Below are positions 7,863 through 32,881 of a DNA stretch of 41,480 nucleotides, in pieces (positions within the stretch are counted from its first letter, which is position 1; each line of letters opens with the position of its first letter). The position numbers were made by a program, and so were the translations under genes. The notes under the pieces are model-generated. The model did no database searches. It was not told the DNA's origin and was given only the letters and a program-made list of their open reading frames with translations. The DNA is from a virus, in IMG/VR virus record IMGVR_UViG_3300044981_000104, positions 1 through 41,480 of that record; one strand, written 5' to 3'.

Positions 7863-9290
7863 ATGAGTCTGTTCCAGACCCCGCCGCCGCCCCAGCCGAC
7901 GCAAGGCGCGTTCAGCAGCACGCCGCCGTGGCCCCCGGCGCCCATTGGCACGCAAGGGACGGCGCCTCCGCTCCGACAAGTCGGGGGCGTCCTGGCCATG
8001 TGTGCGGTGCTCGCGTCGTGGCCGGCCGATCTCGAGCCCGTCCTCCAGCGCCCAAACAATACGCATCAGCAGATCGCGCCCCTGACGCTCCCCTCGGGCA
8101 GCCAGCCGCGCCCCGTGGCGTTCGTGTCCGCGCCGAATCTCTCGACCATTGTGGCGGCGTGGCCGCTGGACTATCCGCCGCGGCAAGCCTCCCCGCTGTC
8201 GGCTGTCACGATTCCGCCGCCGCCCATCCCGATTATTCAGCCGTATAACCCCTTCCGGTATGACGTGCTCGCGTCGACGCTCGACACCTATGAGGTCGAG
8301 GTCGTGCCGACGGCCGTCGTGGCGCAATCGAGCACGGGCCAGCCGCCCGGCCAGAATCCCTTCGGCGCGGTGACGCTGGGAATCGTGCTGCAAGCGTGGA
8401 CGCCGGACGCGCCGCTGATCTGGCGGGTCGCCTCGAATGCCGTAGCGAGCGTGCCGGGGGCCAGCGCGCCGGCGCCCTCGCCCTTCCTCTCGGCCTCGAT
8501 GCTGGGGCAGATCGTCGCGGCCTGGGGCGCCGAGGTTGGGCCCCTGGAACCGGGCCCAGCGCTGCTCGCGCCGCACGTCGCGCCGCTCACGCTGACCTAT
8601 GGCTCGGCTCCGCCGCTCCGGCCCTTCCTGGCTCCCGCGCTGCTGACGCAAATCGTCAGTGCGTGGCCGACCGACACCGGGCCGCTCGCGCCGTGGCCTC
8701 TGGACACGACGCCGCACATCGCGCCGCAGACCTTGCCCACCGGGACGCCGCCCCCGACGGCTGCGTTCCTCTCGCCGACGCAGTTGCGGCAGATCGTCGA
8801 GACCTGGCAGGTGGACTGGGCGGCGCAAGCGGCGCCCCGGAATGCCTGGATCAATGCGGCGCCGAACCTGACCGTCATTCCCTACGCGCCGCTCCCGAAG
8901 CATCTCTGGACGGCCCAGGAGCCGCCCTGGCAGGCGCCGCCGCGGCCCGTCATGGAGGCGCCGCTGACGCTGTCCTACGGCATGCCGCCCGTGCCGCGCG
9001 CGGCGCTGGCGGTGACGACGCTGACGCAGATCGTGTCCGCGTGGTCGGTCGATTGGCCTGCGCAGACTTATAAGAAGAACGCGGCCGTCAATCCGCCGCC
9101 CAGCTTCGTGGTGATACCCTATAGGCGGCTGCACCCGGCCATTCTGCTGGCCAATGAAGTCGTGTGGTGGGCGCCGCCCCGCCCCGTGACGGTCTATGCC
9201 GCGACCCTCAAGCGCTTGTTTCAGCCGCAATGGGCGCTCGGCAGTAACGTCATCGCGGGCCCGATTGCCCCGCAACCGGAAACGCATTGA
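7863..9290 (+). CDS. Proline-rich repeat protein with 47-residue periodicity
   Basis: The product is 475 aa with very high Pro, Ala and Trp content and no signal peptide or transmembrane segment. It is built from repeats of the form P-L-T-L-x2-G-x2-P-P, F-L, L-x-Q-I-V-x-A-W-x2-D. The AW tryptophans lie at residues 53, 100, 179, 221, 268, 315 and 394, giving gaps of 47, 79, 42, 47, 47 and 79. The 79-residue gaps equal one 47-residue unit plus about 32 residues. In the C-terminal part this extra piece contains IPYAPLPKHLW and PPRPV, and it recurs 79 residues later as IPYRRLHPAIL and PPRPV. I know no family with this layout. A rod-like virion or host-contact protein is a guess from its place between a LamG-like protein and the connector genes. 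Confidence 0.7.
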   Translation: MSLFQTPPPPQPTQGAFSSTPPWPPAPIGTQGTAPPLRQVGGVLAMCAVLASWPADLEPVLQRPNNTHQQIAPLTLPSGSQPRPVAFVSAPNLSTIVAAWPLDYPPRQASPLSAVTIPPPPIPIIQPYNPFRYDVLASTLDTYEVEVVPTAVVAQSSTGQPPGQNPFGAVTLGIVLQAWTPDAPLIWRVASNAVASVPGASAPAPSPFLSASMLGQIVAAWGAEVGPLEPGPALLAPHVAPLTLTYGSAPPLRPFLAPALLTQIVSAWPTDTGPLAPWPLDTTPHIAPQTLPTGTPPPTAAFLSPTQLRQIVETWQVDWAAQAAPRNAWINAAPNLTVIPYAPLPKHLWTAQEPPWQAPPRPVMEAPLTLSYGMPPVPRAALAVTTLTQIVSAWSVDWPAQTYKKNAAVNPPPSFVVIPYRRLHPAILLANEVVWWAPPRPVTVYAATLKRLFQPQWALGSNVIAGPIAPQPETH

Positions 9291-17201: not shown

Positions 17202-18661
17202 TGCCGCCGCAGACGCCGCGCCCGCCCGATCTCGACGCGAACGGCAACCCCGTGCCGACCACGAATGCCGATGGGTCCGTGAGCACCACGCTGTCGGCGC
17301 GCGGCCCTAAGCCGCCGGATCTTGACGCAAACGGCAATCCGGTGCCGGACGCTCCTGCGCCGACCTACCCCTGGCGGCGTGCGATGACGGCAGGCGCCGA
17401 CAAGCCTGGCATTCCCCCGGATGTGGCCGCGCAGATGCGCGCAATGGGCGCCGGGACGCCCGTGCCCTCCAGTCCGGCCGTCGTTGGCGATGTGCGGGGC
17501 GCGGTCGCCGGTGTCGCGCCAGCGGTGGGCGGGATGGTCGGCGGCATGGTGGGCGGCATTCCTGGCGCCGCGGTGGGCGGGATGGCGGGCGACGTCGTGC
17601 GACAAGCGCTCACGCCCGCGCCGAGCGGCGACCGCGGCTCAACATTGGGACGCATGGGGCGCGAAGTGGTGGATCTCGGCGAATCGGGGGCTGCGCAAGG
17701 GGCCGCGCAGGCGGCCGGCGAAGGGGTGGCATGGACCGGGGGCAAGCTGGCGTCCTGGCTGATGAATCGGGCCACGACGCGTGTAACCGCGCAGCTCGCA
17801 CGCGAGTTTCCCGACCTGAGCGATACGCTCATCGACAATGCCCTGACGGTCTCGAAGGGCGGCTATGAAAAAGCGAAAGGCATGTTGGTCGCGGCAAAAG
17901 CGGTCGCCAATGATGCGCTGAAAACCGCCGATGCGACGGGTGCGACGATTCCCGTCAGCATGAATGCCGATCTCGCCGACAGTTTCAAAACCGCCGTGCT
18001 TGATCAAGCGCTCAAACGGGGCCAAGTGCCGACGCATCCCGATACACCGCTCGCCGTGGCCTCGCAGCGGCTCTCCCCCGAGCTCCAGGCACTCTTTGAC
18101 CAGGTGGATGCGTCCGTTGGCAAGACGTTCGATCTGACGCCCTCGCAAGCGGACTTGTTCAAAACGCAACTGCAGAAGGAATCGCGCGCGCTGTATCTTA
18201 ACCGGGTCGCGCCAAACGGGCCACGGGCCTTGCAGGCCGAAGCAATAGAGAAAGCGGATTTTGCCACGCAGCTGAACAGCGCGATTGATGGTGTGGCGTC
18301 CGGCTACAAAGCGGCAAACGCCGCCGCGAAACCGCTCATCGGGGCGGTGCGAGGCATTCAACAAGCGATTCGCCCGAGCGGGAATCTACTACAGGCGATG
18401 GTGCGACCCGCCGTAGGAGTCGCGCTGGGCGGATCGGCGGGCAGTTACGAGGGCGGCACACCGGGAGCCTTGGCGGGGGCGGTCATCGGGGGGGCCATGA
18501 CGTCGCCGGAAGGGATGTCGCGCGAAGCGATCACGCTGGCGCATCCGGTGACACAAGCGATTCTCCGACAACTCCCGCGGGCCTTGGCCGCGGCGGTCGC
18601 GAAGTATCTGCCTAGTGGCCCAACAGCGCCATCAGGAACAGCACTGGCACCAGCACCGTGA
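17201..18661 (+). CDS. Putative DNA-ejection protein with glycine-zipper segment, 486 aa
   Basis: The start is ATG 17201, overlapping the previous stop by one base (TAATG). The N-terminus carries two copies of PPDLDANGNPVP (residues about 7-18 and 37-48). Next comes a Gly/Ala/Val-rich region with GGMVGGMVGGIPGAAVGG (residues about 112-129), a glycine zipper that could form a membrane channel. A long helical block follows (about 190-400), and then a second Gly/Ala-rich segment (VGVALGGSAGSYEGG, GALAGAVIGGAM). This plan of two membrane-active Gly zippers around a helical body fits the large internal proteins that form a trans-envelope conduit during DNA ejection. The stop overlaps a GTG, but the next gene more likely starts at 18694. 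Confidence 0.6.
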   Translation: MPPQTPRPPDLDANGNPVPTTNADGSVSTTLSARGPKPPDLDANGNPVPDAPAPTYPWRRAMTAGADKPGIPPDVAAQMRAMGAGTPVPSSPAVVGDVRGAVAGVAPAVGGMVGGMVGGIPGAAVGGMAGDVVRQALTPAPSGDRGSTLGRMGREVVDLGESGAAQGAAQAAGEGVAWTGGKLASWLMNRATTRVTAQLAREFPDLSDTLIDNALTVSKGGYEKAKGMLVAAKAVANDALKTADATGATIPVSMNADLADSFKTAVLDQALKRGQVPTHPDTPLAVASQRLSPELQALFDQVDASVGKTFDLTPSQADLFKTQLQKESRALYLNRVAPNGPRALQAEAIEKADFATQLNSAIDGVASGYKAANAAAKPLIGAVRGIQQAIRPSGNLLQAMVRPAVGVALGGSAGSYEGGTPGALAGAVIGGAMTSPEGMSREAITLAHPVTQAILRQLPRALAAAVAKYLPSGPTAPSGTALAPAP

Positions 18662-18693
18662 GCGCGAGCGCACACAGGCCACAGAGGACCGCA

Positions 18694-19866
18694 ATGCAGT
18701 CAATCACGCCATCAATCACAACAGCACCTCTAGCTGAGCCTACGCCACGTCGCAGGGCGAAAGTCAATCTGCACGCGATTGCACTGGTTCTGGGCCTCTG
18801 CTTGCTTGGCATCCTCCGGCCGCACGCGCAGGGCTTCAGCCTGTCGCCGGCGCCCGTGCTCGAGGTCACCGACACGACCGGCGCCATCGTCCCGCTCGCC
18901 TGCGTGTGGTCCTACAATTCTGGCACTACGACCCCGGCCACGACCTATAGCGACACGCTCGGCACGGCGAACACGAATCCGATCATCGCGGGCGCCGATG
19001 GCACCTTCAAGGTCTATCTGCCGCTCGGCGTGACGCTCAAATACGTCGAGGAGAACGTGCCGTGCTCGTCGGCCTCGCACGGGCCGGTGCTGCGGACCAT
19101 CGACCCCGTCGCGGCGGTGCCCGCCTACACCTATACACCGTGGACGGTCGGCCAGCCGACCGATGCCGGGGTCGTCAATAACTGGGTGCCGAATTCCGGG
19201 GCCATCAGTGGGAGCACCGAGCTCTTTATCAACACGACCGGCCTCACGATTACCGGGTTTGCCGGCGGGAAGGTGGCCGGGCAGCAGATCCTGTTGCAGA
19301 ACATCGGCACGGGCATTGTCTCGCTGGTGCATCAATCCTCCTCGTCCAGCGCCGGCAATAAGATCAATAACTTGGTCGCCTCGGGGCCGACGTCGCTCGC
19401 GCCGGGCGGCGTGGCGCTCTACACCTATGACGGCACGACCTATTGGCGCCTGGTGAGTTATGACCAGGGCGCGTGGATTAGCCTGCCGTTCGGGGCCTTG
19501 GCCTATACGGGCGATGCCGGGGGCCTCATGACCTGGACCGTGACGGCGGGCGAGGTGATGACGCAAGCCTACAAACTGCGCGGGACCGATGTCACGGTGA
19601 CCTGGGATATTCAAGGCTCGACCACCAGTGGCACCGCGGCGAATTATGTGCAAATCTCGAATCGCGCCTGGGGGGGGTTCGTGCCCGCCTTCACGAAGCT
19701 GGATGCCGTCGCCTATCTCAATGACGGCACGACGGTGAGCAGTGGCTTTGCCGCCGTCGCGGCGAGTGGCACGTCCTTCTCCATCTACCGCGTCTCAGCG
19801 GCGAATTATGCGCTCGTCTCGGGTGGCTTCTACACTTATGGCACCGTGACGATTCCCGTGCAATGA
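18694..19866 (+). CDS. Tail fibre-like protein with N-terminal signal/anchor, 390 aa
   Basis: ATG 18694 is preceded by AGAGGA at good spacing; GTG 18658 is an in-frame alternative that overlaps the previous stop. After about 27 polar and basic residues there is a hydrophobic segment (ALVLGLCLLGIL) ending in AQG, which looks like a signal peptide or anchor. Residues about 47-120 match the widespread fibre N-terminal module: VLEVTDTTGAIVPLACVWSYNSGTTTPATTYSD in pattern, then NTNPIIAGADGTFKVYLPLG (usually 'NTNPIVLDANGRA-x-IWL'). The rest is repetitive beta sequence with a C-terminal jelly-roll look. It is the best candidate in this half of the genome for a host-binding fibre. The hydrophobic N-terminus is unusual for a fibre. 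Confidence 0.65.
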   Translation: MQSITPSITTAPLAEPTPRRRAKVNLHAIALVLGLCLLGILRPHAQGFSLSPAPVLEVTDTTGAIVPLACVWSYNSGTTTPATTYSDTLGTANTNPIIAGADGTFKVYLPLGVTLKYVEENVPCSSASHGPVLRTIDPVAAVPAYTYTPWTVGQPTDAGVVNNWVPNSGAISGSTELFINTTGLTITGFAGGKVAGQQILLQNIGTGIVSLVHQSSSSSAGNKINNLVASGPTSLAPGGVALYTYDGTTYWRLVSYDQGAWISLPFGALAYTGDAGGLMTWTVTAGEVMTQAYKLRGTDVTVTWDIQGSTTSGTAANYVQISNRAWGGFVPAFTKLDAVAYLNDGTTVSSGFAAVAASGTSFSIYRVSAANYALVSGGFYTYGTVTIPVQ

Positions 19867-20370: not shown

Positions 20371-20793
20371 ATGACGCCAGCCGATTTCGCGCTCACGCTC
20401 GCGTCCATCAAGGAGCACGAGGGCTTCTCGCCGAAGCCGGTGCCCGATACCGATGATACGCTGCAAGTGGGGTACGGGTTGAACCTGACCACCGATGGCC
20501 TCACCGAACCGGAGGCCAACTGGCTCGCTCAGAGCAAGATGACCGAGCGGATCGCGCAGCTCACCGCCGCGTGGCCGACGTTTGCGACATGCGACGGGCC
20601 GCGGCAGCGATTTGTCCTGGAGTTAGCCTACCAGTGTGGGACGGCGGGGGCGCTCGGCTTCAAAGACACCCTCCACGCCATTGCCGTGAGGAATTATCCA
20701 GCGGCGATCACGGCGCTGCTCGACTCCGACGTGGCGCGGAAGGATCCGGCCCGGACAAAGGATTACATCGCCTTGCTACAGGAGCCTGCATGA
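20371..20793 (+). CDS. Endolysin, GH24 (T4 lysozyme-like)
   Basis: The 140-aa product matches GH24 lysozymes, which cut peptidoglycan between N-acetylmuramic acid and N-acetylglucosamine. From ATG 20371 (GGAG about 9 bases upstream) it reads IKEHEGFSPKPVPDTDD, QVGYGLNL, LTEPEANWL and a helical domain with FVLELAYQCGTAGALGF. E17 and D26 have the same spacing as E11 and D20 of T4 lysozyme. The third catalytic position (T26 in T4) is Q32 here. ATG 20350 in the same frame is a possible longer start. No export signal is present, so a holin should be needed. The stop overlaps the lipoprotein start (ATGA), and AGGAG for the next gene lies inside this one. Confidence 0.85.
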   Translation: MTPADFALTLASIKEHEGFSPKPVPDTDDTLQVGYGLNLTTDGLTEPEANWLAQSKMTERIAQLTAAWPTFATCDGPRQRFVLELAYQCGTAGALGFKDTLHAIAVRNYPAAITALLDSDVARKDPARTKDYIALLQEPA

Positions 20794-22085
20794 CCCGCTG
20801 GCTGCTCGCGCTCGCCCTGCTGGTCTCGGGCTGCACGAGTCCCGCCACGCCCGTGCTCCCGGTGCCCCCGGTCCTTCCCATGACCACGGTTGGCGTCTCG
20901 GTGTGGGATGCCCCGGGTGTCCCCGCGCTCGCCGCCACGGGTGTCCTAGTGCCGTGGGATGGCACCGCCGATCTCCAGGGGGTCAACGTGGCGGGGCGCT
21001 TCACGTTCCGGACGACGTCGACGGGCGGCTCGACGCTCCTTTTCAGCCAGGCCGGGTATCAGACCTCCTCGACGCCGTTCACCATCGCGGCCACGGGACC
21101 GGACATCACGCTGACGCCGGCCTTTCCCGCCTTTCCAACGCGTGCCCAGATGCTCGCGTCCCATGAGTCCTTCCAGGGGTCCGTCCTCCAGACGACCCAG
21201 TTCGGCCCGCTCAACTGGTGGCCCGCCGCCTGGGTCTCGCTCTCCCCCGCCGACCAAGCTGCCAGCTACGCCCAGATCAAAGCCTGGGGCGACACGGACA
21301 TCACGGTCTCCGTGCTCTGGGACTACGGGGAAGCCGGACAACCCTACGGAACCGGCCAACAGGTGCCGGCCGCCGACTTTCGGACGCGGCTTCCTGCCTA
21401 CCGCGCGCTGGTGGAACAGGTGGTGCAGCATGGCTTCATCCCGGTGTTCTTCCTCGACTGCGATAACGGCTACGCCATGTGCCTGGCCGAGATCCCCTCG
21501 GTCGTCCAAGCGCTGCAGCCCCAGCCGACCGATGCCGTGGACCTGACCCAATACGGGAAGTTCCGCCTCTGTTACGACTCGTGCATCCCCGGCTGGCAAC
21601 CGCCGACCGAGATCGACGCCGTGCTGCTCGCGCTGCGGCAGAACTGCCCCCTCTGCGTGATCGGGATGGAGTTCTCGACCGGCTACCCCTTCTGGGGCGG
21701 TGACGGCGGGGGCACGGCGGACTTCCTCTCCCCAGCGGGCCAAGCGCTCGACGAACTGCTCTTCGAGGGCAACGCCTGGCCCCCGCCCGCCGCGACCCCG
21801 AGCGGCGGCGACCAATATTGGCAGGTGATCGACCGCTGGCTCGGGCCGTGCTGGGTGCGCCCCCCGGACATGCCCGCCACCGATGACACGACCCCGCCGT
21901 GGTATCTTGGCGCGGGCACACCGCGCGGCGTCTACGGCGTGCACGCCTTCGAGAACCTGACGTATCAGTGGGTGCGTGGCCAACTGCCACACTCGGTCGT
22001 GCCGCTCGACCTCGCGCTGTTCCGATCCTTCTACGCGCCGGCTTCGTCGACGTGTCCGATCTATGCGGTGGACCTTCCCCAATGA
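20790..22085 (+). CDS. Lipoprotein with carboxypeptidase-regulatory-like domain and glycosidase-like domain
   Basis: ATG 20790 has AGGAG 6-10 bases upstream. The 431-aa product has a lipoprotein signal: MTRWLLALALLVSGC, lipobox LVSGC with Cys15. After a Pro-rich linker comes a small beta domain (residues about 33-115: VGVSVWDAPGVPA, VAGRFTFRTTS, LLFSQAGYQ, ITLTPAFP) like carboxypeptidase regulatory-like domains. From about 125 on the pattern suggests a TIM-barrel glycosidase-like fold: QTTQFGPLNWWPAAW, AWGDTDITVSVLWDYGEAG, YRALVEQVVQHGFIPVFFLD, CVIGMEFSTGYPFWGG, PPWYLGAGTPRGVYGVHAFE. Similar proteins recur in uncultured podovirus-like genomes, to my recollection, without known function. Acid residues in strand ends (E in GMEFSTG, D in FFLDCD) could be catalytic. 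Attachment to a membrane is unusual for a phage enzyme. Confidence 0.65.
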   Translation: MTRWLLALALLVSGCTSPATPVLPVPPVLPMTTVGVSVWDAPGVPALAATGVLVPWDGTADLQGVNVAGRFTFRTTSTGGSTLLFSQAGYQTSSTPFTIAATGPDITLTPAFPAFPTRAQMLASHESFQGSVLQTTQFGPLNWWPAAWVSLSPADQAASYAQIKAWGDTDITVSVLWDYGEAGQPYGTGQQVPAADFRTRLPAYRALVEQVVQHGFIPVFFLDCDNGYAMCLAEIPSVVQALQPQPTDAVDLTQYGKFRLCYDSCIPGWQPPTEIDAVLLALRQNCPLCVIGMEFSTGYPFWGGDGGGTADFLSPAGQALDELLFEGNAWPPPAATPSGGDQYWQVIDRWLGPCWVRPPDMPATDDTTPPWYLGAGTPRGVYGVHAFENLTYQWVRGQLPHSVVPLDLALFRSFYAPASSTCPIYAVDLPQ

Positions 22086-23872: not shown

Positions 23873-24196
23873 GTGCTAGACTCAGCCGTGTCGCCGCGCA
23901 AGAAACCCGCGCCGAAGCCTACACCGTCGCCGTCCACCCTGCTCCCGCAACTCGCCCAACTGCTAGGACAACTGATGACCACTGTCGCGAGTATCCAAAG
24001 CCAGCTTTCGACGCTCACAACCGCGATCACGACCCTCGGCACGGCCATCGCCGCCATCGAGGCACCCGTCGCCTCGCAAGCCGATCTCGACGCCATCGCG
24101 CTGTCCATCACCAACGCCCAGACCGCACTCGGCGCCATCGTGGTTCCCGCGCCGGCTGCTGCTCCCGCGTCCACCGCGCCTCCGGCCACCTCCTAG
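23873..24196 (+). CDS. Hypothetical coiled-coil protein, 107 aa
   Basis: The start is uncertain: GTG 23873, GTG 23888 and ATG 23975 are in frame, and none has a strong ribosome site. The N-terminal part is basic and Pro-rich (SPRKKPAPKPTPSPS). The body is a heptad-like helix, LLPQLAQLLGQLMTTVASIQ followed by LSTLTTAITTLGTAIAAIEA and a second such segment ending IVVPAPAAAPAS. Such a protein is likely a trimeric or dimeric coiled coil. It lies between the tiny membrane protein and the next small gene. Phages often carry short coiled-coil proteins of this type in the late region without known role. Confidence 0.5.
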   Translation: MLDSAVSPRKKPAPKPTPSPSTLLPQLAQLLGQLMTTVASIQSQLSTLTTAITTLGTAIAAIEAPVASQADLDAIALSITNAQTALGAIVVPAPAAAPASTAPPATS

Positions 24197-24209
24197 GAGG
24201 GGGTGTATC

Positions 24210-24590
24210 ATGGGCCTCTCCTTCTCCAAGTTCTTCAGCATCCTGACCGCCATCGCGCCGATCATCCTGATGGCGGTCCCCGGGGGTGCCGCCCTCGCGC
24301 CGCTGGTCCCCGTCATCGTCCAGGGCGTCGCCGACGCCCAGCAGAAGCCGGGCGCCACCGGGGCGACCAAGAAGGCCTATGTCATGGCGCTGGTCACCGA
24401 CGCGGTCACGGGGGCCAACACGGTCAAACCCGGGACCATCGACGCCCCGACCGCGCTCACCGCCGCCTCCGAGGGCATCGACGCGGTGATCACCTCGGTG
24501 AACGCGGTGCAACTGGCCCACCAGAACCAGCCGACCGCGCCGCCGGCGCTGCTCGCGGCGCCGCCTACGTCAGCGCCGCCTGTGGCCTGA
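24210..24590 (+). CDS. Small hydrophobic protein, 126 aa
   Basis: ATG 24210 has a very strong AGGAGGGGG upstream. The N-terminal half is hydrophobic: FFSILTAIAPIILMAVPGGAALAPLVPVIVQGV, enough for one or two membrane helices. The rest is helical with Ala/Thr and a Pro-rich C-terminus. It is the last plus-strand gene of the late block and ends four bases from the stop of a convergent minus-strand gene. A holin-related or virion-internal role is possible; no family is recognised. Confidence 0.6.
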   Translation: MGLSFSKFFSILTAIAPIILMAVPGGAALAPLVPVIVQGVADAQQKPGATGATKKAYVMALVTDAVTGANTVKPGTIDAPTALTAASEGIDAVITSVNAVQLAHQNQPTAPPALLAAPPTSAPPVA

Positions 24591-24594
24591 ACGC

Positions 24595-24819
24595 TCACTT
24601 GTCGGCCTCCGGGGCGTCGGCGGCTCTAAATCCATGCTCAGACAACCATTCGCGGGCCTCGCAACATCCGCAGAGCTCACGCGGTGTTTCTATCACACTG
24701 CTTTCCGGCGGTTCGTCGCAATCACTTGCGCAGCCGTAGGAGGCCAGTAGACGTGTGAACGCAATCAGGCGTAACCGCTCGTCCACCGTCAATTTTGCAG
24801 CTCGCTGCCTCTGTGTCAC
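24595..24819 (-). CDS. Small hypothetical protein with AADAPE C-terminus, 74 aa
   Basis: This is the last gene of the minus-strand operon. ATG (24819) overlaps the stop of the gene before it as ATGA. The product has a helical N-terminus (LTVDERLRLIAFTRLLASYG), an acidic middle with two cysteines (CASDCDE), a CGCC motif and a helix (EAREWLSEHGF), and ends RAADAPEADK. The last residues are encoded by the same 18-base sequence that ends three neighbouring genes. The cysteines (C, C, CxCC) could bind metal. No family is recognised. Confidence 0.6.
   Translation of the reverse strand: MTQRQRAAKLTVDERLRLIAFTRLLASYGCASDCDEPPESSVIETPRELCGCCEAREWLSEHGFRAADAPEADK
24607..24624 (-). repeat. 18-base repeat copy 1 (codes AADAPE)
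   Basis: On the plus strand this reads ctccggggcgtcggcggc, and on the coding minus strand it gives GCC GCC GAC GCC CCG GAG. The same bases recur at 24828, 25075 (one change) and 25608, each time at the 3' end of a minus-strand gene. Confidence 0.85.
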
Positions 24820-25055
24820 TTTTCCCCCTCCGGGGCGTCGGCGGCGGCCACCACCACACCAACAAATTCATAGCCACCATGCCAGGGCAGACGCGCGCCA
24901 GTCCGTTGAGCACTCTGCTTGATTCTGTCTCGACATCCCACACACCACGCGGCGTAGCCCTGCACAAGATGGGAAGGTTCAAGCAGACAGCCACCACAGC
25001 CCTGACAGTGGTTGTGCCGCCGATGGTCGAGAGCGAAGATTTCAAACTCGGTCAT
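24816..25055 (-). CDS. Small zinc-knuckle protein with AADAPE C-terminus, 79 aa
   Basis: The start is ATG at 25055 (MTEFEIFALDHRRH), five bases after the stop of the upstream gene; a longer upstream frame is Arg/Pro-rich and not credible. It has two cysteine pairs, CQGCGGC and WCVGCRDR, that should form a zinc knuckle, with nearby His residues (DHRRHNHCQ). The end is VVVAAADAPEGEK, so it carries the shared C-terminal motif. Its stop overlaps the next start as ATGA. No family is recognised; nucleic-acid binding is possible. Confidence 0.6.
   Translation of the reverse strand: MTEFEIFALDHRRHNHCQGCGGCLLEPSHLVQGYAAWCVGCRDRIKQSAQRTGARLPWHGGYEFVGVVVAAADAPEGEK
24828..24845 (-). repeat. 18-base repeat copy 2 (codes AADAPE)
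   Basis: The 18 bases are identical to copy 1. They lie nine bases before the stop codon of the 79-aa gene, so the motif sits at the same place in the protein as in the other three. Confidence 0.85.
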
Positions 25056-25059
25056 GGCT

Positions 25060-25599
25060 TCATGGTTCCTTCGGGTCCGGGGCGTCGGCGGCGGCCGCAA
25101 TCAGACGATCCCAGTGTGCGCGCACGGCTGGATGGGCCCGACCATTCGATGAGTCCGCTATCTTCCTCTTTGCTTCTTCGGCCAACCACGCCCGCTGACC
25201 TCGAATGAACTCCTCGACGCGGCCAGGAACGTCATATTGCGGATAGAGCAGGTCTTCGCCGTTCACGATCATGAAGGGGCCAGTCATGTGCCGCGTGCGC
25301 TTCAGAATATCGAGGTCCGCGCAACTGGCTTGGAAGCCGGTCACGCCGAGCACGTGCGCGACGTAGTGGAACGCGGCGACGGCGGCCATGCTCATCGCGT
25401 AACAGCACGTCCCGTAATCGTGGGGTCGATCCACGAGTTTCGCGATGTAAGCCGAGAGTTCTTCGGGCGTCTTGAGCCACGGCACCTCGGCGTCACGCAT
25501 CTGCGCCTCGGTAAGCACACCCGCCTCGGCAATCTTCTCAGCCCACTCGCGCTCCATGCGGTCCGTCTCGATAGCGGGATTGTCTTTGTCGTCGCTCAT
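25060..25599 (-). CDS. Conserved-type phage protein, 179 aa, AADAPD C-terminus
   Basis: The start is ATG at 25599 (MSDDKDNP), which overlaps the upstream gene's stop as ATGA. The protein is mostly helical with conserved-looking blocks: WLKTPEELSAYIAKLVDRPH, YGTCCYAMSMAAVAAFHYVA, GFQASCADLDILKRTRHM, GPFMIVNGEDLLYPQYD and EEFIRGQRAWLAEEAKRKI. I recall this protein type from many unrelated phage genomes, where it is of unknown function. The end is LIAAAADAPDPKEP, where the shared C-terminal motif shows one base change (Glu to Asp). It is the most conserved-looking protein of the minus-strand operon. Confidence 0.7.
   Translation of the reverse strand: MSDDKDNPAIETDRMEREWAEKIAEAGVLTEAQMRDAEVPWLKTPEELSAYIAKLVDRPHDYGTCCYAMSMAAVAAFHYVAHVLGVTGFQASCADLDILKRTRHMTGPFMIVNGEDLLYPQYDVPGRVEEFIRGQRAWLAEEAKRKIADSSNGRAHPAVRAHWDRLIAAAADAPDPKEP
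25075..25092 (-). repeat. 18-base repeat copy 3 (codes AADAPD)
   Basis: One base differs from the other copies (first plus-strand base g instead of c). It codes AADAPD near the end of the 179-aa protein. Confidence 0.8.
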
Positions 25600-26213
25600 T
25601 TCTCGGCCTCCGGGGCGTCGGCGGCGGCGAGGGCCTCCACATAGACCTTCACCGCGATCAAGAGTTCGTCGCGCTGGCGCCAATCACCCAGATCAGCACG
25701 GTTCACCCATTTGTTCCATGCCCTGATGAGGACTGCACAGCGTTCTCGCAAGGTTGCCTGCGCCTGGCGGGCGGCCGTGAGCGCCGCTTCGGCCACTTTC
25801 CGTTCATCATCGGCATGGACAGCTTCGCAGCAGGGACAGGACTTCCAGAGTTCTTGGTGCGCTTCACAGAACACGGCGAGGGCGCGGTCTCGCTCGGCTT
25901 CGGCCGCCGCGAGCTGCCGCTGTGCCGCATTTCTCTCCCCCACCAGCCGACGCAGTTCGTCCTCTGACTCGCAGATCAGTTCGATGGCGTCTGACCCTGC
26001 ACCCTTGCTGTCATCCTCGCGCCATTGCACGATGCGCCCAATCAGCGACAGTTCCGGCTCGGTTGAATGTTCCTTGGCGCGCGATGTCACAGTGACCTCC
26101 TGCGCTTGCCACGTCGCCGTGGGACACAAGTAAGAGAACTCGTTATGCGAACTCCGCGCCTTGATATGCTCGGCCTGCACGTGACCGCAGCGGGCGCAGC
26201 GGGGATCGGTCAT
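25596..26213 (-). CDS. Coiled-coil protein with N-terminal zinc knuckle and AADAPE C-terminus, 205 aa
   Basis: The start is ATG at 26213 (MTDPRCARCGHVQAEH), which overlaps the stop of the small gene upstream as ATGA. The N-terminus has C-x2-C-x6-H and a later Cys (YLCPTA), a likely zinc ribbon. The middle is a long coiled coil (ELRRLVGERNAAQRQLAAAEAERDRALAVF in pattern), then a CPCC motif (KSCPCCEAVHADDE), then more helix ending VEALAAADAPEAEK. A longer open frame upstream (to 26618) is an antisense shadow of plus-strand genes. Coiled coil plus zinc knuckles would suit a DNA- or protein-binding hub; the function is unknown. Confidence 0.6.
   Translation of the reverse strand: MTDPRCARCGHVQAEHIKARSSHNEFSYLCPTATWQAQEVTVTSRAKEHSTEPELSLIGRIVQWREDDSKGAGSDAIELICESEDELRRLVGERNAAQRQLAAAEAERDRALAVFCEAHQELWKSCPCCEAVHADDERKVAEAALTAARQAQATLRERCAVLIRAWNKWVNRADLGDWRQRDELLIAVKVYVEALAAADAPEAEK
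25608..25625 (-). repeat. 18-base repeat copy 4 (codes AADAPE)
   Basis: The 18 bases are identical to copies 1 and 2; with copy 1 the identity extends a few bases further on the plus-strand left side (tcggc). It lies nine bases before the stop codon of the 205-aa gene. Confidence 0.85.
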
Positions 26214-26383
26214 GCGTCGCGCTCGCGCGCCTCGCGCGCCTCGCGCGCGAAATAGTGCATTCGGCCGACGGCGATGATCCGCGCCTTCGCGGCGTCGTAG
26301 GCTGTCCAGTTCACGCCATCGGCCGTCGTCAGCGCGTTGAACAGCGCCGCGAGTTCCTCGTCCGTGAAATGCACGATCGGCAT
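26210..26383 (-). CDS. Small hypothetical protein, 57 aa (first gene of the minus operon)
   Basis: The start is ATG at 26383 and the stop overlaps the next gene as ATGA. The product reads MPIVHFTDEELAALFNALT, then WTAYDAAKARIIAVGRMH, and ends in an Arg/Glu-rich tail made by a nine-base tandem repeat (AREAREARERDA). It is helical and hydrophilic. A candidate promoter lies directly upstream with its predicted start of transcription at or within one base of the ATG, so the message may be leaderless. No family is recognised. Confidence 0.6.
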   Translation of the reverse strand: MPIVHFTDEELAALFNALTTADGVNWTAYDAAKARIIAVGRMHYFAREAREARERDA

Positions 26384-26387
26384 GCGC

Positions 26388-26416
26388 TAGACAATACACG
26401 AGCCTTCGCTTAGAAT
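26388..26416 (+). promoter_or_regulatory. Candidate sigma70-type promoter, plus strand
   Basis: TAGACA (26388-26393) and TAGAAT (26411-26416) are separated by 17 bases. Predicted transcription start is about 26423, only a few bases before ATG 26427, so the early transcript may be nearly leaderless. Confidence 0.5.
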
Positions 26417-26419
26417 CAA
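26391..26419 (-). promoter_or_regulatory. Candidate sigma70-type promoter, minus strand
   Basis: Read on the minus strand, TTGATT (26419-26414) and TATTGT (26396-26391) are 17 bases apart. The predicted start is next to ATG 26383. The -35 box overlaps the -10 box of the plus promoter and the -10 box overlaps its -35 box, so the two should exclude each other. Confidence 0.5.
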
Positions 26420-26426
26420 GGCGCTG

Positions 26427-26576
26427 ATGAAGAAGAACGCGCAGGCGCAAGCCGCCGGGCGGTTGGGCGGCCAAGCGAAAAGCGCCAAGAAAACGGCAGC
26501 AAATCGCAAGAAAGCCGAGACGACCTCGCGTCTGTGGAAGGCCATGAAAACAGTGCTTGCAAAACCTCACGCTTAG
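26427..26576 (+). CDS. Small basic protein, 49 aa (first gene of early operon)
   Basis: ATG 26427 follows the candidate plus promoter by about ten bases. The 49-aa product is very basic: MKKNAQAQAAGRLGGQAKSA, then KKTAANRKKA and a short helix (SRLWKAMKTVLAK). The A-x-GRLGG-x-AKS pattern is seen in small bacterial and phage basic proteins with histone-like or HTH character. A role in DNA binding or early control is likely but unproved. The sequence around its start (CGCTTAGAA...AAG) is loosely repeated around its stop, just before the next gene. Confidence 0.55.
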   Translation: MKKNAQAQAAGRLGGQAKSAKKTAANRKKAETTSRLWKAMKTVLAKPHA

Positions 26577-26591
26577 AACTAAGCTCTGTTC

Positions 26592-26801
26592 ATGAGCAAC
26601 CACACCACGCGCCTGCACCGCATGTCAGCTAGCCAGCTTTTGCGTCAGGGCATCGGCACCGTGCCGACTATCGTCGACGTCGTGCGTCTTCGCGTCACGC
26701 TTCGCTGCAACGAGTGTGGCCATACCTGGCGCGTGTCGCCGAACGCCAGCGACCCGCAGTGCGCCCGCTGCAACTCGGTGGATTGGGAGGTGAAGGCATG
26801 A
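26592..26801 (+). CDS. Small zinc-ribbon protein, 69 aa
   Basis: ATG 26592 lies 15 bases after the previous stop. After a basic N-terminus (MSNHTTRLHRMSASQLL) there is a zinc ribbon with two CxxC knuckles: RCNECGHTWRV (residues about 38-48) and QCARCNSVDWEV (residues about 56-67). The spacing and the Trp after the first knuckle resemble zinc ribbons of transcription factors and nucleic-acid-binding proteins. Its 3' end carries GGGAGG, the ribosome site of the next gene, whose start overlaps its stop (ATGA). Confidence 0.65.
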   Translation: MSNHTTRLHRMSASQLLRQGIGTVPTIVDVVRLRVTLRCNECGHTWRVSPNASDPQCARCNSVDWEVKA

Positions 26802-27013
26802 CCACCCACTACCTGCCGGCGTATACCGTTCACAAGCACCGGCTCCAGCAAGCGGCGTGCGGCCTCTTCATTTCGTCGGCGCAGCATTCCACCACGCCGA
26901 CCTGCGCGCCCTGCGCCGCGTGGCTGAAGGCGCTCGACGAGGACGATGAAGCGACCGCCGTCGCGCTCGAGGCGGAATTCCCCGAATTCCGCGGGAAGCT
27001 GAGGACGCGATGA
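26798..27013 (+). CDS. Small hypothetical protein, 71 aa
   Basis: ATG 26798 has GGGAGG upstream and overlaps the previous stop. The product contains HYLPAYTVHKHRLQQAACG, then a C-x2-C pair (CAPCAAWLKALDED) and an acidic helix (DDEATAVALEAEF). It could bind a metal through H-H-C-C-type residues. Its stop overlaps the next start as ATGA. No family is recognised. Confidence 0.6.
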   Translation: MTTHYLPAYTVHKHRLQQAACGLFISSAQHSTTPTCAPCAAWLKALDEDDEATAVALEAEFPEFRGKLRTR

Positions 27014-27231
27014 AGGTCATCCGCCATCGCTTCAATATCTGGGTCGATGTGCCTGCCGTCTATGGCGATGGGTGGTCAAAGTATCCCGACTATTCGGCTG
27101 GCGAAGTCGGTCGCATGCTGCGCCGCGCGTTGCATGATCGGTTCGAACTCAAAGCCGTTGTCGAACACGCCGACAGCGTGACCGTTGATGAACAGGAACC
27201 GCCAGTGGATCATCGGCTGGTGGGACGATGA
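27010..27231 (+). CDS. Small hypothetical protein, 73 aa
   Basis: ATG 27010 overlaps the previous stop as ATGA, and its own stop overlaps the exonuclease start in the same way. The product is an alpha/beta sequence: MKVIRHRFNIWVDVPAVYGD, then PDYSAGEVGRMLRRALHDRF and AVVEHADSVTVDEQEP. There is no signal peptide or cysteine motif. It probably belongs with the recombination genes by coupling. The function is unknown. Confidence 0.6.
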   Translation: MKVIRHRFNIWVDVPAVYGDGWSKYPDYSAGEVGRMLRRALHDRFELKAVVEHADSVTVDEQEPPVDHRLVGR

Positions 27232-28856
27232 GCGACACCGTCGTCCTCATCGACATGGGATCTTTAGCCCATCCACTGTGGCACGTATCGCAGTCGGACC
27301 CGAATCCCGATACCACGTCGATCAAGATCGTCGAGCGCGTGCGCGCCCTCGCCAGCGGCCAGCCGCACGTCGCCGTCTGCTACGACACCGGCCGCAGCTT
27401 TCGGCACGACATCGACCCGACCTACAAATCGCAACGGCCTGAGCACCTCGCGACGCTCCAGTATCAAATCGACCTCGCGCTCGATACGCTGCGCGCCGAC
27501 GGGTTTCCGTGCTACGGCGTGAAAGATTACGAGGCCGACGACGTGATCGCGTCCATCGCTGCGCGTGTGCTCGCGCGTGACCTCGGCACGTCGGTGGTGG
27601 TGGTGTCCAGTGACAAGGATCTGTGTGCGCTGATCGGCGGCGGCGTCGTCGTGCGCTCGCTGACGAACGGCGCCGTCTACGATGCCGAGGGCGTCAAGGC
27701 AAAGTTCGGCGTCGCGCCGGAGCAGATCGTCGATTACCTCGCGCTCGTGGGCGATACGAGCGACGGCGTGAAGGGTGCGCGCGGCATCGGGGCCAAGACG
27801 GCCGCCGCGCTGCTCCAGAAATACGGCACGCTGGAGGATCTCTACACGCAGCTCACCGAACACGGCACCCAGTTCACGCCCGCGATGGCGACCGCGCTCC
27901 GCGAGTTTCAGCCGCGCCTGCCCACCGTGCGCGCGCTGCTGACGCTGCACGCCGACGTGCCGCTCGACATCGACGCGATCTGGAAGCCGCGCGTGCCGGC
28001 GGACGCCGATGCGTTCGTCGATGACATCGATTTCGCCATGCCGACGTTAGGAGCGAGCGAGATGGAAAGCTCACAGCCTGATACGAGGGGCGCCACAAAC
28101 GGTCAGGCGCCGGTGACATCACGGGCCGCTCCAGTTCGCGTCAAATGCGACGGCAACCACGCGATGCCGCGCTGCGATGACCCGGAATGCTGGCAAGATA
28201 ATCCGGTGATTCTTGCGAGTGGGCTGCCTGGACCGCGACTATCGCGCGCAGCGTCTGAGGCAGCGGCCGCGTCGCAGAATAGTTCCGGGCGCGATCCGAT
28301 CCTCGTGCCGCAAATGGCCATCCCAAGCCCTGGACCCGTCGGCCTAGCGCCCGTGCCCTACGAGCGCCAACTGGAGCCCACGTCGCTGCGCGAGTGCGCG
28401 GCCTTGGCGAGCGAGATGTTCAAGTCGCGCCTGTTCTCCGCGTACGGCACGCCCCAGGGGGTGCTCTCGACGTTGCTCGCCGGGCGCGAACTCGGGCTCT
28501 CGGCCATGAGCTCGCTGCGCAGTTTCCACATCATCGACGGCAAGCCGTCGCTCTCAGCCGACCTGATTCGCGCGCTCGTGCTCCGATCGGGCATGGCGGA
28601 ATCGTTCCGCTGCACGGCGCGCAGCGCGGAGTCGGTCACCTTCACGACGAAACGGAAGGGCGATCCCGAATTCTCGCTCACGTATACGCTGGACGAAGCG
28701 AAAGCGGCGTGGTCGAAAGACGAACGCGCCTGGAAGGCGAGCGGCTGGGGGCGCCATCCCGCCGACATGCTCGTCGCCCGGTGCTCCGCGAAGCTAGCCC
28801 GGCTGGTCTATGCGGACGTGGTGACGGGGCTCTATTCGCCAGAGGAACTGGAATGA
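27228..28856 (+). CDS. 5'-3' exonuclease fused to RecT-like single-strand annealing domain
   Basis: This 542-aa protein joins two recombination activities. Residues 1-275 are a FEN/PolA-type 5'-3' exonuclease: LIDMGS, YKSQRP, YEADDVIASIA (101-111), VSSDKDL (126-132), GDTSDGV (175-181) and RGIGAKTAAALLQKYG (185-200) give the metal-binding acids and the helix-hairpin-helix. A linker (about 280-380) holds C307, H311, C316 and C321, a possible zinc site. Residues about 385-542 look like RecT: LREC-ALASEMFKSRLF, GVLSTLLAGRELGLS, FHIIDGKPSLSADLIRALV, FTLDEAK-like YTLDEAKAAW, WGRHPADMLVARCSAK, VTGLYSPEEL. Usually exonuclease and annealase are separate genes. An AGGAG (28049-28053) sits 8 bases before in-frame ATG 28062 (M279), so a free annealase may also be made. 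It would act in strand-annealing recombination and concatemer formation. Confidence 0.85.
   Translation: MSDTVVLIDMGSLAHPLWHVSQSDPNPDTTSIKIVERVRALASGQPHVAVCYDTGRSFRHDIDPTYKSQRPEHLATLQYQIDLALDTLRADGFPCYGVKDYEADDVIASIAARVLARDLGTSVVVVSSDKDLCALIGGGVVVRSLTNGAVYDAEGVKAKFGVAPEQIVDYLALVGDTSDGVKGARGIGAKTAAALLQKYGTLEDLYTQLTEHGTQFTPAMATALREFQPRLPTVRALLTLHADVPLDIDAIWKPRVPADADAFVDDIDFAMPTLGASEMESSQPDTRGATNGQAPVTSRAAPVRVKCDGNHAMPRCDDPECWQDNPVILASGLPGPRLSRAASEAAAASQNSSGRDPILVPQMAIPSPGPVGLAPVPYERQLEPTSLRECAALASEMFKSRLFSAYGTPQGVLSTLLAGRELGLSAMSSLRSFHIIDGKPSLSADLIRALVLRSGMAESFRCTARSAESVTFTTKRKGDPEFSLTYTLDEAKAAWSKDERAWKASGWGRHPADMLVARCSAKLARLVYADVVTGLYSPEELE
28049..28064 (+). promoter_or_regulatory. Candidate internal ribosome binding site and start in the fusion gene
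   Basis: AGGAG (28049-28053) is 8 bases before ATG 28062, in frame at residue 279, exactly in the linker between the exonuclease and RecT-like parts. Initiation here would give a 264-residue product with the linker cysteines and the annealing domain only. Confidence 0.5.
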
Positions 28857-29817: not shown

Positions 29818-30053
29818 TGCTATTCCTGGTCGACCCGGCGCAGCAGACGCGCACGCTGGTGGCGAACGCCGCCCGCGCCCACCGCGTGAACGCGCTCGCG
29901 CCGGACCGCCGCGAGGCCGTGCTCGCCGCCGAGCGCTACCTCCGCGATGCCTCCGTCTACGGCGCCGCCGCCGAGCAGATCCTGTCCCGCTGGCGCCGCG
30001 GCGCGCCCGGACTGGCCTGGATGTCCGACGCCTGGCGCAAGAGCCTCAAGTGA
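29814..30053 (+). CDS. Small helical protein, 79 aa
   Basis: ATG 29814 overlaps the previous stop; a second ATG follows directly. The protein is Ala/Arg-rich and helical: TRTLVANAARAHRVNALAP, RREAVLAAERYLRDASVYG, AAEQILSRWRRG. It has no cysteine motif or membrane segment. The stop overlaps the GTG start of the helicase (GTGA), so the two are coupled. No family is recognised. Confidence 0.55.
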   Translation: MMLFLVDPAQQTRTLVANAARAHRVNALAPDRREAVLAAERYLRDASVYGAAAEQILSRWRRGAPGLAWMSDAWRKSLK

Positions 30054-31453
30054 CCTACGCCGACTTTCTCGAGCGCAAGCGACAGCTCGGCGGGAATCAC
30101 GGATTCGCGCCAACGTTCCTGCCCTCCTGGCTTTACGACTTTCAAGCCTCTCTCGTCGAGTGGGCGACACGGAAAGGCCGCGCCGCGGTATTCGCCGATT
30201 GCGGGCTCGGCAAAACCCCGATGCAGCTCGTGTGGGCGCAGAACGTGGTCGAGCACACGAATCGGTCGGTCCTGCTACTCACGCCGCTCGCCGTCGGAGC
30301 CCAAACCCTGGCCGAAGCCGAGAAGTTTGCGATTCCCGCGGTGCGGTCCCGCGATGGCGCCGTCCCTGCCCAGCCGACGATAGTCATTACGAACTACGAA
30401 AAGCTGCATCTGTTTACGCCTGAGGACTTCGCCGGTGTCGTGTGCGATGAATCGAGCATCCTCAAGCACTTCGCGGGCGCGACGCAGAAAGCCGTGACGC
30501 GGTTCATGTGGAATATGCCCTATCGGTCCTTGTGGACCGCGACGGCTGCCCCCAATGATTATGTCGAACTCGGCACCTCCTCTGAAGCGCTCGGCGAACT
30601 CGGCATGGTGGATATGCTCAGTCGATTCTTCAAGATGGACAAACAGGTCCATCAATTAAACCAACTGAAGCACGGACGAGATATTACGGCAGGTGTCAAT
30701 GTAAGCGGAACCGGCAGTAGTTGGCGGCTCAAAGGCCATGCGGTGACGCCCTTCTGGCGGTGGATTGCGTCCTGGGCGCGCGCGTGTCGGCGTCCGAGCG
30801 ACCTCGGCTTCGCAGATGACCGCTTCGTCTTGCCTCCCCTCGAGGAGCGGCATCACATCGTCATCCCGACACGTCCACAAGACGGGATGCTCTTCACGGT
30901 ACCGGTCGTGGGCCTGCAAGAAGAGCGCGACGAACGGCGGCGCACGCTGGACGAGCGCGTCGCGCTGGTCGCCTCCCTGGTCGATCATCGCCAACCGGCG
31001 GTCGTCTGGTGTCACATGAACATCGAAGGCGATGCCCTCGTGCGCGCGATTCCTGGTGCGCGTCAAGTGAAAGGCGCCGACACCGATGACGAGAAAGAGG
31101 ACGCCTATCGCGCGTTCGCGACCGGCGAGCTGCGCGTGCTCGTCATCAAACCGAAAATCGGCGCGTGGGGGATGAACTGGCAGCACTGCGCGCACGTCGT
31201 GACGTTCGCCTCGCACAGTTACGAGCAGTTCTATCAGTCCGTGCGGCGGTGCTGGCGCTTCGGCCAGACACAGCCGGTGCGCGTGGATATCGTCTCGACC
31301 GAAGGCGAGGCGCATGTGCGTGAGAATATGGCGCGCAAAGCCGCCGCCGCCGATGTGATGTTCGCGGAACTCGTGCGCCTGATGCACGACGCGACCGGTC
31401 TCGAGCGGTCCATGCAGGAAGGCGCACCTGTGGAGGTGCCAGCATGGGTGTGA
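30050..31453 (+). CDS. SNF2/DEAD-type helicase, 467 aa
   Basis: The start is GTG 30050 in a GTGA overlap. The product is a superfamily 2 helicase of SNF2-like type. Motif I is FADCGLGKT (48-56), motif Ia LLLTPLAV (77-84 region), motif II VVCDESS (130-136), motif III-like LWTATAAPND (161-170). The C-terminal RecA domain has AVVWCHMN (317-324) and LVIKPKIGAWGMNWQHC, and motif VI is QSVRRCWRFGQTQPV (396-410), which is the arginine-finger region. Residues about 195-300 form an insertion. Such single-protein helicases are common in phage early regions, often beside a methyltransferase, as here. It could remodel replication or recombination intermediates. It overlaps the methyltransferase gene by ten bases. 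Confidence 0.85.
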   Translation: MTYADFLERKRQLGGNHGFAPTFLPSWLYDFQASLVEWATRKGRAAVFADCGLGKTPMQLVWAQNVVEHTNRSVLLLTPLAVGAQTLAEAEKFAIPAVRSRDGAVPAQPTIVITNYEKLHLFTPEDFAGVVCDESSILKHFAGATQKAVTRFMWNMPYRSLWTATAAPNDYVELGTSSEALGELGMVDMLSRFFKMDKQVHQLNQLKHGRDITAGVNVSGTGSSWRLKGHAVTPFWRWIASWARACRRPSDLGFADDRFVLPPLEERHHIVIPTRPQDGMLFTVPVVGLQEERDERRRTLDERVALVASLVDHRQPAVVWCHMNIEGDALVRAIPGARQVKGADTDDEKEDAYRAFATGELRVLVIKPKIGAWGMNWQHCAHVVTFASHSYEQFYQSVRRCWRFGQTQPVRVDIVSTEGEAHVRENMARKAAAADVMFAELVRLMHDATGLERSMQEGAPVEVPAWV

Positions 31454-32457
31454 TGAGGCCCGGCACTGTCGTGCTATTCACGTGGAGAAATATCGTGCCA
31501 GTCGCTAATCAAGTCATCACAGACCGTTATGCTCTCTATCTAGGCGACGCGATGGACGTGATGGGATCGCTGCCGGCCGAGTCGGTGCATCTCTCGCTCT
31601 ATTCGCCGCCGTTCGGTGGCCTCTACCAATACAGTTCCGACGAGCGTGACCTCTCGAATTGCCTGAACTATGGAGAGTTTTTCGAGCACTACACCTTCGT
31701 CGTGCGCGCGCTGCACCGGCTCACGCGCCCGGGTCGCATGTCGGCCGTGCATTGCATGGACATTCCGACCGGCAATACCGGCCTCGATCATCTGCGCGAC
31801 TTTCCCGGCGACATCATCCGCCTGCACGAGCGCGAAGGCTGGGCGTATGTCGCGCGCTATCACGTCTGGAAAGAGCCGCTCACGGTGCGAAACCGGACGA
31901 TGACGAAGACGCTCTCGCACAAGGTGGTCACGGTGGACTCGACGCGGTGCAGTATTGCCAATGCGGATTACGTGCTCATCTTTCGGCGCTCGGGCACGAA
32001 CACGATTCCCGTCGAGCATCCCACAGGCTTGACCGACTACTACGGGGAGCGGAAACCGCCGGCAGAAGATTTACGCTTTCGCGGCTGGCAGGGCAGTCAG
32101 CTCGAAAACCGCTATTCGCAGTGGGTGTGGCGACAATATGCCTCTGCGTTTTGGGACGATGTGCGTCTCGATCGGGTGCTTCCGCATACGCAGGCACGCG
32201 TCGAAGAGGACGAGCGACACGTGCATCCATTGCAGCTTGATGTTATCGAGCGCGCGCTCGTGCTGTGGAGCAATCCCGGCGAAACCGTGCTGACGCCATT
32301 CATGGGTGTCGGCTCGGAAGTCTACGGCGCGGTGCGCAACGGGCGCAAAGGCGTGGGCATCGAACTGAAGGCGTCCTACTTCCACCAGGCGGTCAAGAAT
32401 GTCGAGGCCGCGCTCAGCGAACGCACCGCGGAGCAAACGCCGCTCTTTGCCGAATGA
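31444..32457 (+). CDS. DNA methyltransferase, N4-cytosine/N6-adenine type (beta order)
   Basis: ATG 31444 has GGAGG about 7 bases upstream inside the helicase gene; ATG 31453 is a weaker alternative. The 337-aa product is an amino-methyltransferase: motif IV is SPPF (54-57), after LYLGDAMDVM and before GGLYQYSS. The S-adenosylmethionine motif I is at the C-terminus, TPFMGVGSEVYGAVRNGRKGVGIEL in pattern (FMGVGS at 286-291). The order IV before I is the beta class. SPP[FY] is more frequent in N4-cytosine enzymes, but N6-adenine cannot be excluded. It likely modifies phage DNA to avoid host restriction. No partner restriction enzyme is seen; a PD-(D/E)xK resolvase-like gene follows directly. Confidence 0.85.
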   Translation: MGVMRPGTVVLFTWRNIVPVANQVITDRYALYLGDAMDVMGSLPAESVHLSLYSPPFGGLYQYSSDERDLSNCLNYGEFFEHYTFVVRALHRLTRPGRMSAVHCMDIPTGNTGLDHLRDFPGDIIRLHEREGWAYVARYHVWKEPLTVRNRTMTKTLSHKVVTVDSTRCSIANADYVLIFRRSGTNTIPVEHPTGLTDYYGERKPPAEDLRFRGWQGSQLENRYSQWVWRQYASAFWDDVRLDRVLPHTQARVEEDERHVHPLQLDVIERALVLWSNPGETVLTPFMGVGSEVYGAVRNGRKGVGIELKASYFHQAVKNVEAALSERTAEQTPLFAE

Positions 32458-32735
32458 ACGCGAAAGCCAAAGGCTCACGAGCCGAGCGCCGCGCCATGCG
32501 CATCCTCGAAGCGGCCGGCTACCGCTGCACGAAGGCCGGCGGCTCTCTCGGTCTCTTCGACGTCATCGGCATCGGCGCGCACGACGTGCGCTGCATCCAG
32601 GTCAAAAGCGGCAGCGCGTATCTCTCAGGCGTCGAACGCGAGCAGATCCAGGCGCTCGCGGTGCCGGCGAACGTCACGCGCGAGAGTTGGAGATTTCCGG
32701 ACCGATGCCGCGTCCCCCTGATTGAGCGGTTGTGA
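32454..32735 (+). CDS. Holliday junction resolvase-like nuclease (Hjc/PD-(D/E)xK type), 93 aa
   Basis: ATG 32454 overlaps the methyltransferase stop (ATGA). The product starts MNAKAKGSRAERRAMRILEAAG, like archaeal Hjc resolvases (KG-x-RAER). It then has SLGLFDVIGIGAHDVRCIQVKSG, the core of a PD-(D/E)xK nuclease. Proposed metal residues are E11, D36 and K51. The usual Glu of the E-x-K pair is Gln49, a change also seen in some phage homologues. Substrate could be branched DNA from replication and recombination, fitting the neighbouring helicase and annealase. A Vsr- or restriction-like role is an alternative given the adjacent methyltransferase. Confidence 0.75.
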   Translation: MNAKAKGSRAERRAMRILEAAGYRCTKAGGSLGLFDVIGIGAHDVRCIQVKSGSAYLSGVEREQIQALAVPANVTRESWRFPDRCRVPLIERL

Positions 32736-32881
32736 TGAGCGAGGCGGAGCTCTACCGCGAGATGTTGCAGATCGCGCTCGCGCAGGTGCACGAGGCCGGC
32801 CAGCGATATGCGGCGCTGGCGCGCTGCTGCCAGGCGCTCGAGGACGAGCTCCGCCGCTACATCGCCATGCAGATTCGCTAA
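32735..32881 (+). CDS. Tiny helical protein, 48 aa
   Basis: ATG 32735 (or GTG 32732) overlaps the resolvase stop. The product is one or two helices: MSEAELYREMLQIALAQVHE, then QRYAALARCCQALEDELRRY. It is amphipathic with a heptad-like pattern. It is the last gene of the run before a strong promoter. The coupling and clean boundaries support it as real despite its length. The function is unknown. Confidence 0.5.
   Translation: MSEAELYREMLQIALAQVHEAGQRYAALARCCQALEDELRRYIAMQIR

Follow-up and report, generated by a model that had tools for sequence, protein, structure and literature searches.

What could cause four neighbouring and otherwise unrelated phage genes to end in the same stretch of DNA? 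The question arises at one locus of the IMG/VR record IMGVR_UViG_3300044981_000104, positions 1 to 41,480 of which constitute the window, i.e., the whole stretch of DNA analyzed here (41,480 bp). A 17-bp sequence, GCCGCCGACGCCCCGGA, hereafter the seam, closes four adjoining genes on the minus strand (copies 1 to 4 at 25609-25625, 25076-25092, 24829-24845, and 24608-24624, respectively) and has zero copies elsewhere in the record, in agreement with an earlier note on this DNA that had pointed to a common end of these genes. The note had described an identical 18-mer; this holds exactly for three copies, in which base 18 is a G (E), while the copy in the 179-aa gene matches at 17 of 18 positions because base 18 is a C (D) there. 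The random positions and frames that the note had set against its own idea were looked for and not encountered: in all four genes the seam is read in frame as AADAP followed by E or D, a few codons from the stop. Gene 1 (25596-26213, minus strand, as are the others) encodes a coiled-coil-like mosaic protein of 205 aa with the C terminus AAADAPEAEK; gene 2 (25060-25599) encodes a 179-aa protein of unassigned function (AAADAPDPKEP); gene 3 (24816-25055) encodes a small, CxxC-containing protein of 79 aa (AAADAPEGEK); and gene 4 (24595-24819), the last of the array, encodes a 74-aa protein (RAADAPEADK). As the note had stated, the four proteins are otherwise unrelated, since BLASTP among their bodies revealed no mutual similarity; defence, PHROG, and Pfam scans assigned no function to any of them.

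The repeated gene end is not due to chance. When the 2-kb region was dinucleotide-shuffled 200 times, a 17-mer never recurred, and 30 such shuffles of the complete window gave no 17-mer with more than two occurrences. The shared synonymous codons, which had previously been taken as a sign of a DNA-level reason, bear out that view: the probability that all synonymous choices would be common to the copies is approximately 1e-5 by the codon usage of the phage and approximately 2e-7 by the usage of the array genes themselves. An explanation by chance or by an assembly artefact could draw on the high GC content and the Ala/Pro-rich coding, which raise the background similarity; nevertheless, the shuffled regions contained no 17-mer repeat, the internal positions serving as the control of the survey below gave zero matches, and the same seam is present in a second, separate contig. 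We therefore consider this explanation negligible.

Two features of the junctions had gone unmentioned in the note, namely, that the end of the motif is the Shine-Dalgarno (SD) sequence of the next gene and that the genes overlap or closely abut. The junction sequences surrounding the next start codon are CCGGAGGCCGAGAAATGAGC between genes 1 and 2, CCGGACCCGAAGGAACCATGAAGCCATGACC between genes 2 and 3, and CCGGAGGGGGAAAAGTGACA between genes 3 and 4; behind gene 4, the sequence is CCGGAGGCCGACAAGTGAGC. In three of the four seam copies, GGAGG is located exactly 7 nt from RTGA on the minus strand: at 25607-25611 ahead of the ATG of gene 2, at 24827-24831 ahead of the GTG of gene 4, and at 24606-24610 ahead of a GTGA behind gene 4. 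Stop and start share a 4-nt overlap both between genes 1 and 2 (ATGA) and between genes 3 and 4 (GTGA); genes 2 and 3 are separated by a 4-nt gap. In copy 2, at this gene 2-3 junction, the final G of the seam is a C (GGAC for GGAG past the 17-mer core), and GAAGGA farther on (25067-25072) can stand in as a substitute SD. Copy 4 is without a likely downstream gene because the frame behind gene 4 is antisense to a plus-strand frame (24210-24590), and its GGAGG appears to be an open or vestigial end. These SD sequences were read from the sequence and assume the standard anti-SD. Since the SD and the stop/start overlap are contained in the gene end, the shared end doubles as the region in which translation of the following gene begins. 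The suggestion of a binding site at each junction thus holds in a specific sense, the site being the ribosome-binding site of the next gene.

Other signals were sparse at the junctions. A search against Rfam of positions 24000-27300 gave no family at the gathering threshold, and no promoter- or terminator-like sites were found inside the seams; a sigma-70-like match (24792-24819) is located in gene 4, adjoining seam 3 but outside it. A hairpin sequestering the SD, considered as a coupling device, yielded weak z-scores in most copies, the last copy of the sister phage introduced below excepted. The latter copy (L005:1315-1385, minus strand), located between convergent genes, is part of a strong hairpin (-31.7 kcal/mol, z -4.4) with the arms GAAGCAG/CTGCTTC, which possibly constitutes a bidirectional terminator. 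Upstream of gene 1, a 57-aa gene (26210-26383, minus strand; 98% amino acid identity in the sister phage) shares an ATGA overlap with gene 1 and carries no seam.

Scanning for the seam pattern in its coding context returned one contig, IMGVR_UViG_3300043777_000088 (G001; 41,638 bp), here called the sister phage, which is circularly permuted with respect to the window and 91 to 97% identical to it across most blocks. The sister apart, the 17-mer matches in viral contigs (27 contigs) were all single-copy and outside a stop/start context; the 8 pattern matches in genome contigs were single and chance-like, and the genome contigs L039 and L041 had a match near a start or stop, yet not in multiple copies. 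Searches for relatives of genes 1 and 2 yielded none or the sister alone, and the portal protein search yielded the sister alone among viral contigs and matches of approximately 25 to 29% identity in INPHARED. Elsewhere in the window, the DNA of the region 30053-32863, which includes most of a helicase gene as well as a DNA methyltransferase gene, finds no match in the sister phage, and a long frame without a PHROG match (20571-22085) lies in a block that is 95% conserved there at the DNA level.

The window region of 23.7-26.2 kb is largely replaced in the sister phage, which carries at the same locus four minus-strand genes whose seam is either that of the window or partly diverged from it. 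These are gene 1′ (221 aa, ending in AAADDEAGT), a 110-aa gene with AAADATNEETHK approximately 20 residues ahead of its stop, an RNA ligase-like gene (208 aa, ending in AAADAPEAPNEHL), and a last gene of 94 aa ending in AAADAPEAQP. Three of the four bodies are unrelated to the window bodies, and the last two genes have only the seam in common with the window (21 to 27 bp, exact). Different gene bodies before the same seam, which the note had proposed to look for in other phages, were thus found. The final ~162 bp of gene 1 match gene 1′ at 98%, and this block stops at GCCGCCGACG, inside seam copy 1. On the other side, a 495-bp block of 99% identity stops after ATGACCGATCCCCGCTGCGCCCGC (26190-26213, minus strand), i.e., after the first codons of gene 1; a 20- to 25-bp copy of this 5′ seam opens another gene of the sister phage. 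Past the block, the sister contains a 17-codon remnant, an extra 162-aa gene, and then the gene opening with the same 20 bp. In the coordinates of the sister locus L033, this ~0.5-kb gene occupies 18601-19126, between two 20-bp gene-start copies, and the remnant reads MTDPRCARPLEHNNGLR up to its stop.

Gene bodies and ends proved to be separable, because a 46% identical relative of the 162-aa protein in another contig (L018) has a different end. INPHARED homologs of the sister's RNA ligase aligned to residues 1 to 183 of 208, so the seam lies outside the aligned domain. Breakpoints were located in seams once at a 3′ and once at a 5′ end, the left border of the replaced region falls outside any seam, and the exchange is a two-genome comparison because one close relative was found. 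As the seams occupy approximately 4% of the array, a single breakpoint in an 18-bp seam could be chance. The different bodies preceding the same seam, together with the high-identity block that ends in it, nonetheless make a recombination seam the best supported of the three options originally put forward.

Could the seam be only a conserved ribosome-binding element, copied or converged by selection for an efficient coupled start, with no special role in recombination? The SD with its fixed spacing is what such an element would look like, and the Start-Associated Sequences (SAS) of cluster K mycobacteriophages provide a precedent of a repeated SD-like element preceding starts (PMC3203893). However, the identity reaches 12 to 20 nt upstream of the SD, with identical synonymous codons, the identity block shared with the sister terminates inside the seam, and the last gene of both phages retains the seam though no downstream gene needs the SD. 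Moreover, in the relative L081, ordinary ATGA junctions are common and have no shared upstream sequence, and hence a shared end is not a necessary consequence of coupling alone. We consider this explanation unlikely. The retention in the last gene, where an SD is not needed, could equally be cited for AADAPE being a shared C-terminal tag for docking, localisation, or proteolysis, as could the fixed frame and near-stop place in all four window genes. The tag is very improbable given the identical codons (p ~1e-5) and the sister phage, in which APE is lost from two copies (AADDEAGT at the stop and AADATNEETHK...) and one copy lies ~20 residues from the stop; the same design is furthermore combined with unrelated peptides in other phages.

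We therefore favor, with a probability of about two in three, the reading that the repeat is a ribosome-binding site for translational coupling that is retained as a short stretch of homology, a seam at which gene bodies are exchanged. Ribosomes ending one gene would start the next from the built-in SD, and for this reason an incoming gene with a seam end would, as we propose, keep the operon translated. The 17 to 27 bp of identity would serve as a homology handle between copies of which bodies are inserted, lost, or replaced, permitting body exchange without breaking the frame or the coupling. DNA-level copying would hold the synonymous codons identical, and the AADAPE peptide would be a tolerated by-product. 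From the sequence we infer that the SD works in the host, that the seams are used in recombination, and which recombinase may be involved: approximately 1 kb from the array, a single 542-aa frame (27228-28856, plus strand) combines PolI-type 5′-3′ exonuclease domains with a RecT-like annealing domain. This fusion is the candidate agent, and the exchange would be homology-driven and probably RecT-like. Near full-length relatives of the fusion are encoded in several other viral contigs (L081 to L086).

The major capsid protein led to relatives at 47 to 53% identity, one of which, the distant relative IMGVR_UViG_3300033888_000029 (G005), carries an array whose small genes end in LAALPDSPKGEAR, LAALPDPPKGEVK, and LAALSDPPEGETR, each up to the stop, with AAGGGAG or GGAGGGAG ahead of GTGA/ATGA at each gene end. 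In this array (L061:517-2981, corresponding to G005 40517-42981), the genes have a common start segment, TPARPQSAEQ, and one body is a Nudix hydrolase. Judged by sequence, the layout is the same as in the window and the letters are other. The G005 genes are also alike in N-terminal and coil segments (~30% identity), and paralogy may account for part of this array because its bodies share that weak N-terminal similarity. This similarity, and a true tandem paralog pair found elsewhere (L101, which is not a seam), would fit an origin in which one ancestral gene was duplicated in tandem and its copies diverged everywhere except at the end. In the window and the sister, however, BLASTP among the bodies gave no mutual similarity except between gene 1 and its counterpart, and an RNA ligase is among them; besides, 17 to 18 bases could hardly stay exact during a divergence of the bodies past recognition. 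Tandem duplication is thus quite improbable as the general origin of the shared end, and exchange at coupled seams remains our preferred reading. A second contig of the G005 type (L073) is uninformative on exchange because it is identical across the compared 8.8 kb.

The prevalence of the layout was estimated by a survey of gene ends, in which the final 48 nt of every coupled frame were compared with those of others no more than 4 kb away and internal positions at offsets of 60, 90, and 120 nt served as the control; the counts are approximate because the survey was based on open reading frames and not on curated genes. Sharing of at least 21/24 nt was found for 8 pairs at gene ends versus 0 at internal offsets in the window, the sister, and G005, and for 2 pairs versus 0 in 26 other viral contigs (L018 and L024). 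The latter ends, RRKDLEAL and PRKGKEGSS, respectively, are accompanied by an SD and an adjacent or overlapping start. The L018 pair consists of two neighbouring genes (2542-3366) with GGAAGGATCT.GAGGCGCTCTGA and then ATG, and the L024 pair consists of two neighbouring small genes (7778-7939, minus-strand ends) with AAGGGCAAGGAAGGATC.TC.TGA and GTGA and ATGA overlaps. Gene ends of lambda, TM4, and BA3 gave 0 pairs at this threshold. Among 67 loci fetched solely by the exonuclease gene, without reference to seams, we found, besides tandem paralogs, one triple of consecutive genes (L088, ...ELEAQ/...ELETL, GGAGGCACAATGA); the internal control of this sample gave 2 matches at offset 120, one from tandem paralogs and one from repetitive sequence. 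In the triple, three consecutive small genes (L088:4079-4691) end in ELEAQ, ELETL, and ELEAQ, with TGGAGGCACAATGA or a near copy and an ATGA overlap. Several other candidates were rejected: repeats at 38.3-39.3 kb in G009 are internal to one long protein and hence not seams, a pair in G003 looks like a repeat rather than a seam, and ~20 bp of the G005 start seam inside another gene of L074 are probably there by chance.

The seam is a variant of two known arrangements. Conserved boundary, or linker, sequences are short stretches of identical DNA at module borders, at which homologous recombination has been proposed to seed phage mosaicism (PMC3029335). Like them, the same seam stands beside unrelated bodies in the window and in the sister; unlike them, it is repeated several times per genome, lies inside coding C termini, and carries the next ribosome-binding site. 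In the lambda nin region, the genes form a chain in which ATGA links one to the next (Kroger and Hobom 1982, described in PMC8022706), and the array resembles it, going by that description, in its tightly packed accessory genes and in 4-nt stop/start overlaps with the SD in the upstream gene. Some nin genes end in similar GGGAG...GCATGA, but these ends fall below the identity threshold used, whereas the seam is exact over 17 to 27 bp.

Other systems are more distant. The SAS of cluster K mycobacteriophages are asymmetric SD-like repeats ahead of starts of different gene families (PMC3203893); the SAS consensus, GGGATAGGAGCCC, is defined by its place before starts, whereas the seam belongs to the coding end of the gene before it, and no match to the consensus with up to 2 mismatches was found in the window. 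The PeSL of T4-type phages, a cassette of an early promoter and a stem-loop (Arbiol 2010, cited in PMC4503421), is, going by that citation, likewise a repeated element between accessory genes mediating modular shuffling, but the seams contain no promoter- or terminator-like site and resemble a translation signal instead. Phage Rad52-like recombinases perform relaxed homologous recombination on short, diverged homology, with substrates of at least 100 bp (PMC3945230); the exonuclease-RecT fusion is a candidate enzyme of this broad class, although its action on seams of 17 to 27 bp is an extrapolation. Integron-like cassettes would call for a site-specific recombinase, and neither the tyrosine nor the serine family (PF00589 and PF00239) gave a match in the record, which may be incomplete. 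The seam differs from SAS, PeSL, nin, and boundary sequences in lying within the last codons of the upstream gene, in being repeated within one array, and in having lineage-specific letters with a kept layout.

It has long been asked how phages come to exchange genes cleanly at gene borders, and boundary sequences have been proposed there but are usually not visible (PMC3029335). Here such a sequence is visible, repeated, and tied to starting the next gene, which would explain its retention. It provides a simple rule for finding exchangeable accessory arrays in phage genomes, and a mechanism that is easily testable. Tentatively, each lineage may have its own connector, consisting of a C-terminal end, an SD, and a stop/start unit, that makes the accessory operon a plug-in array in which the letters vary and the layout is kept; we regard this generalization as possible, though short of an even chance. 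If it is true, any body bearing the connector could be recombined in and translated at once, and the array would represent a homology-based equivalent of integron cassettes, with no need for a dedicated integrase.
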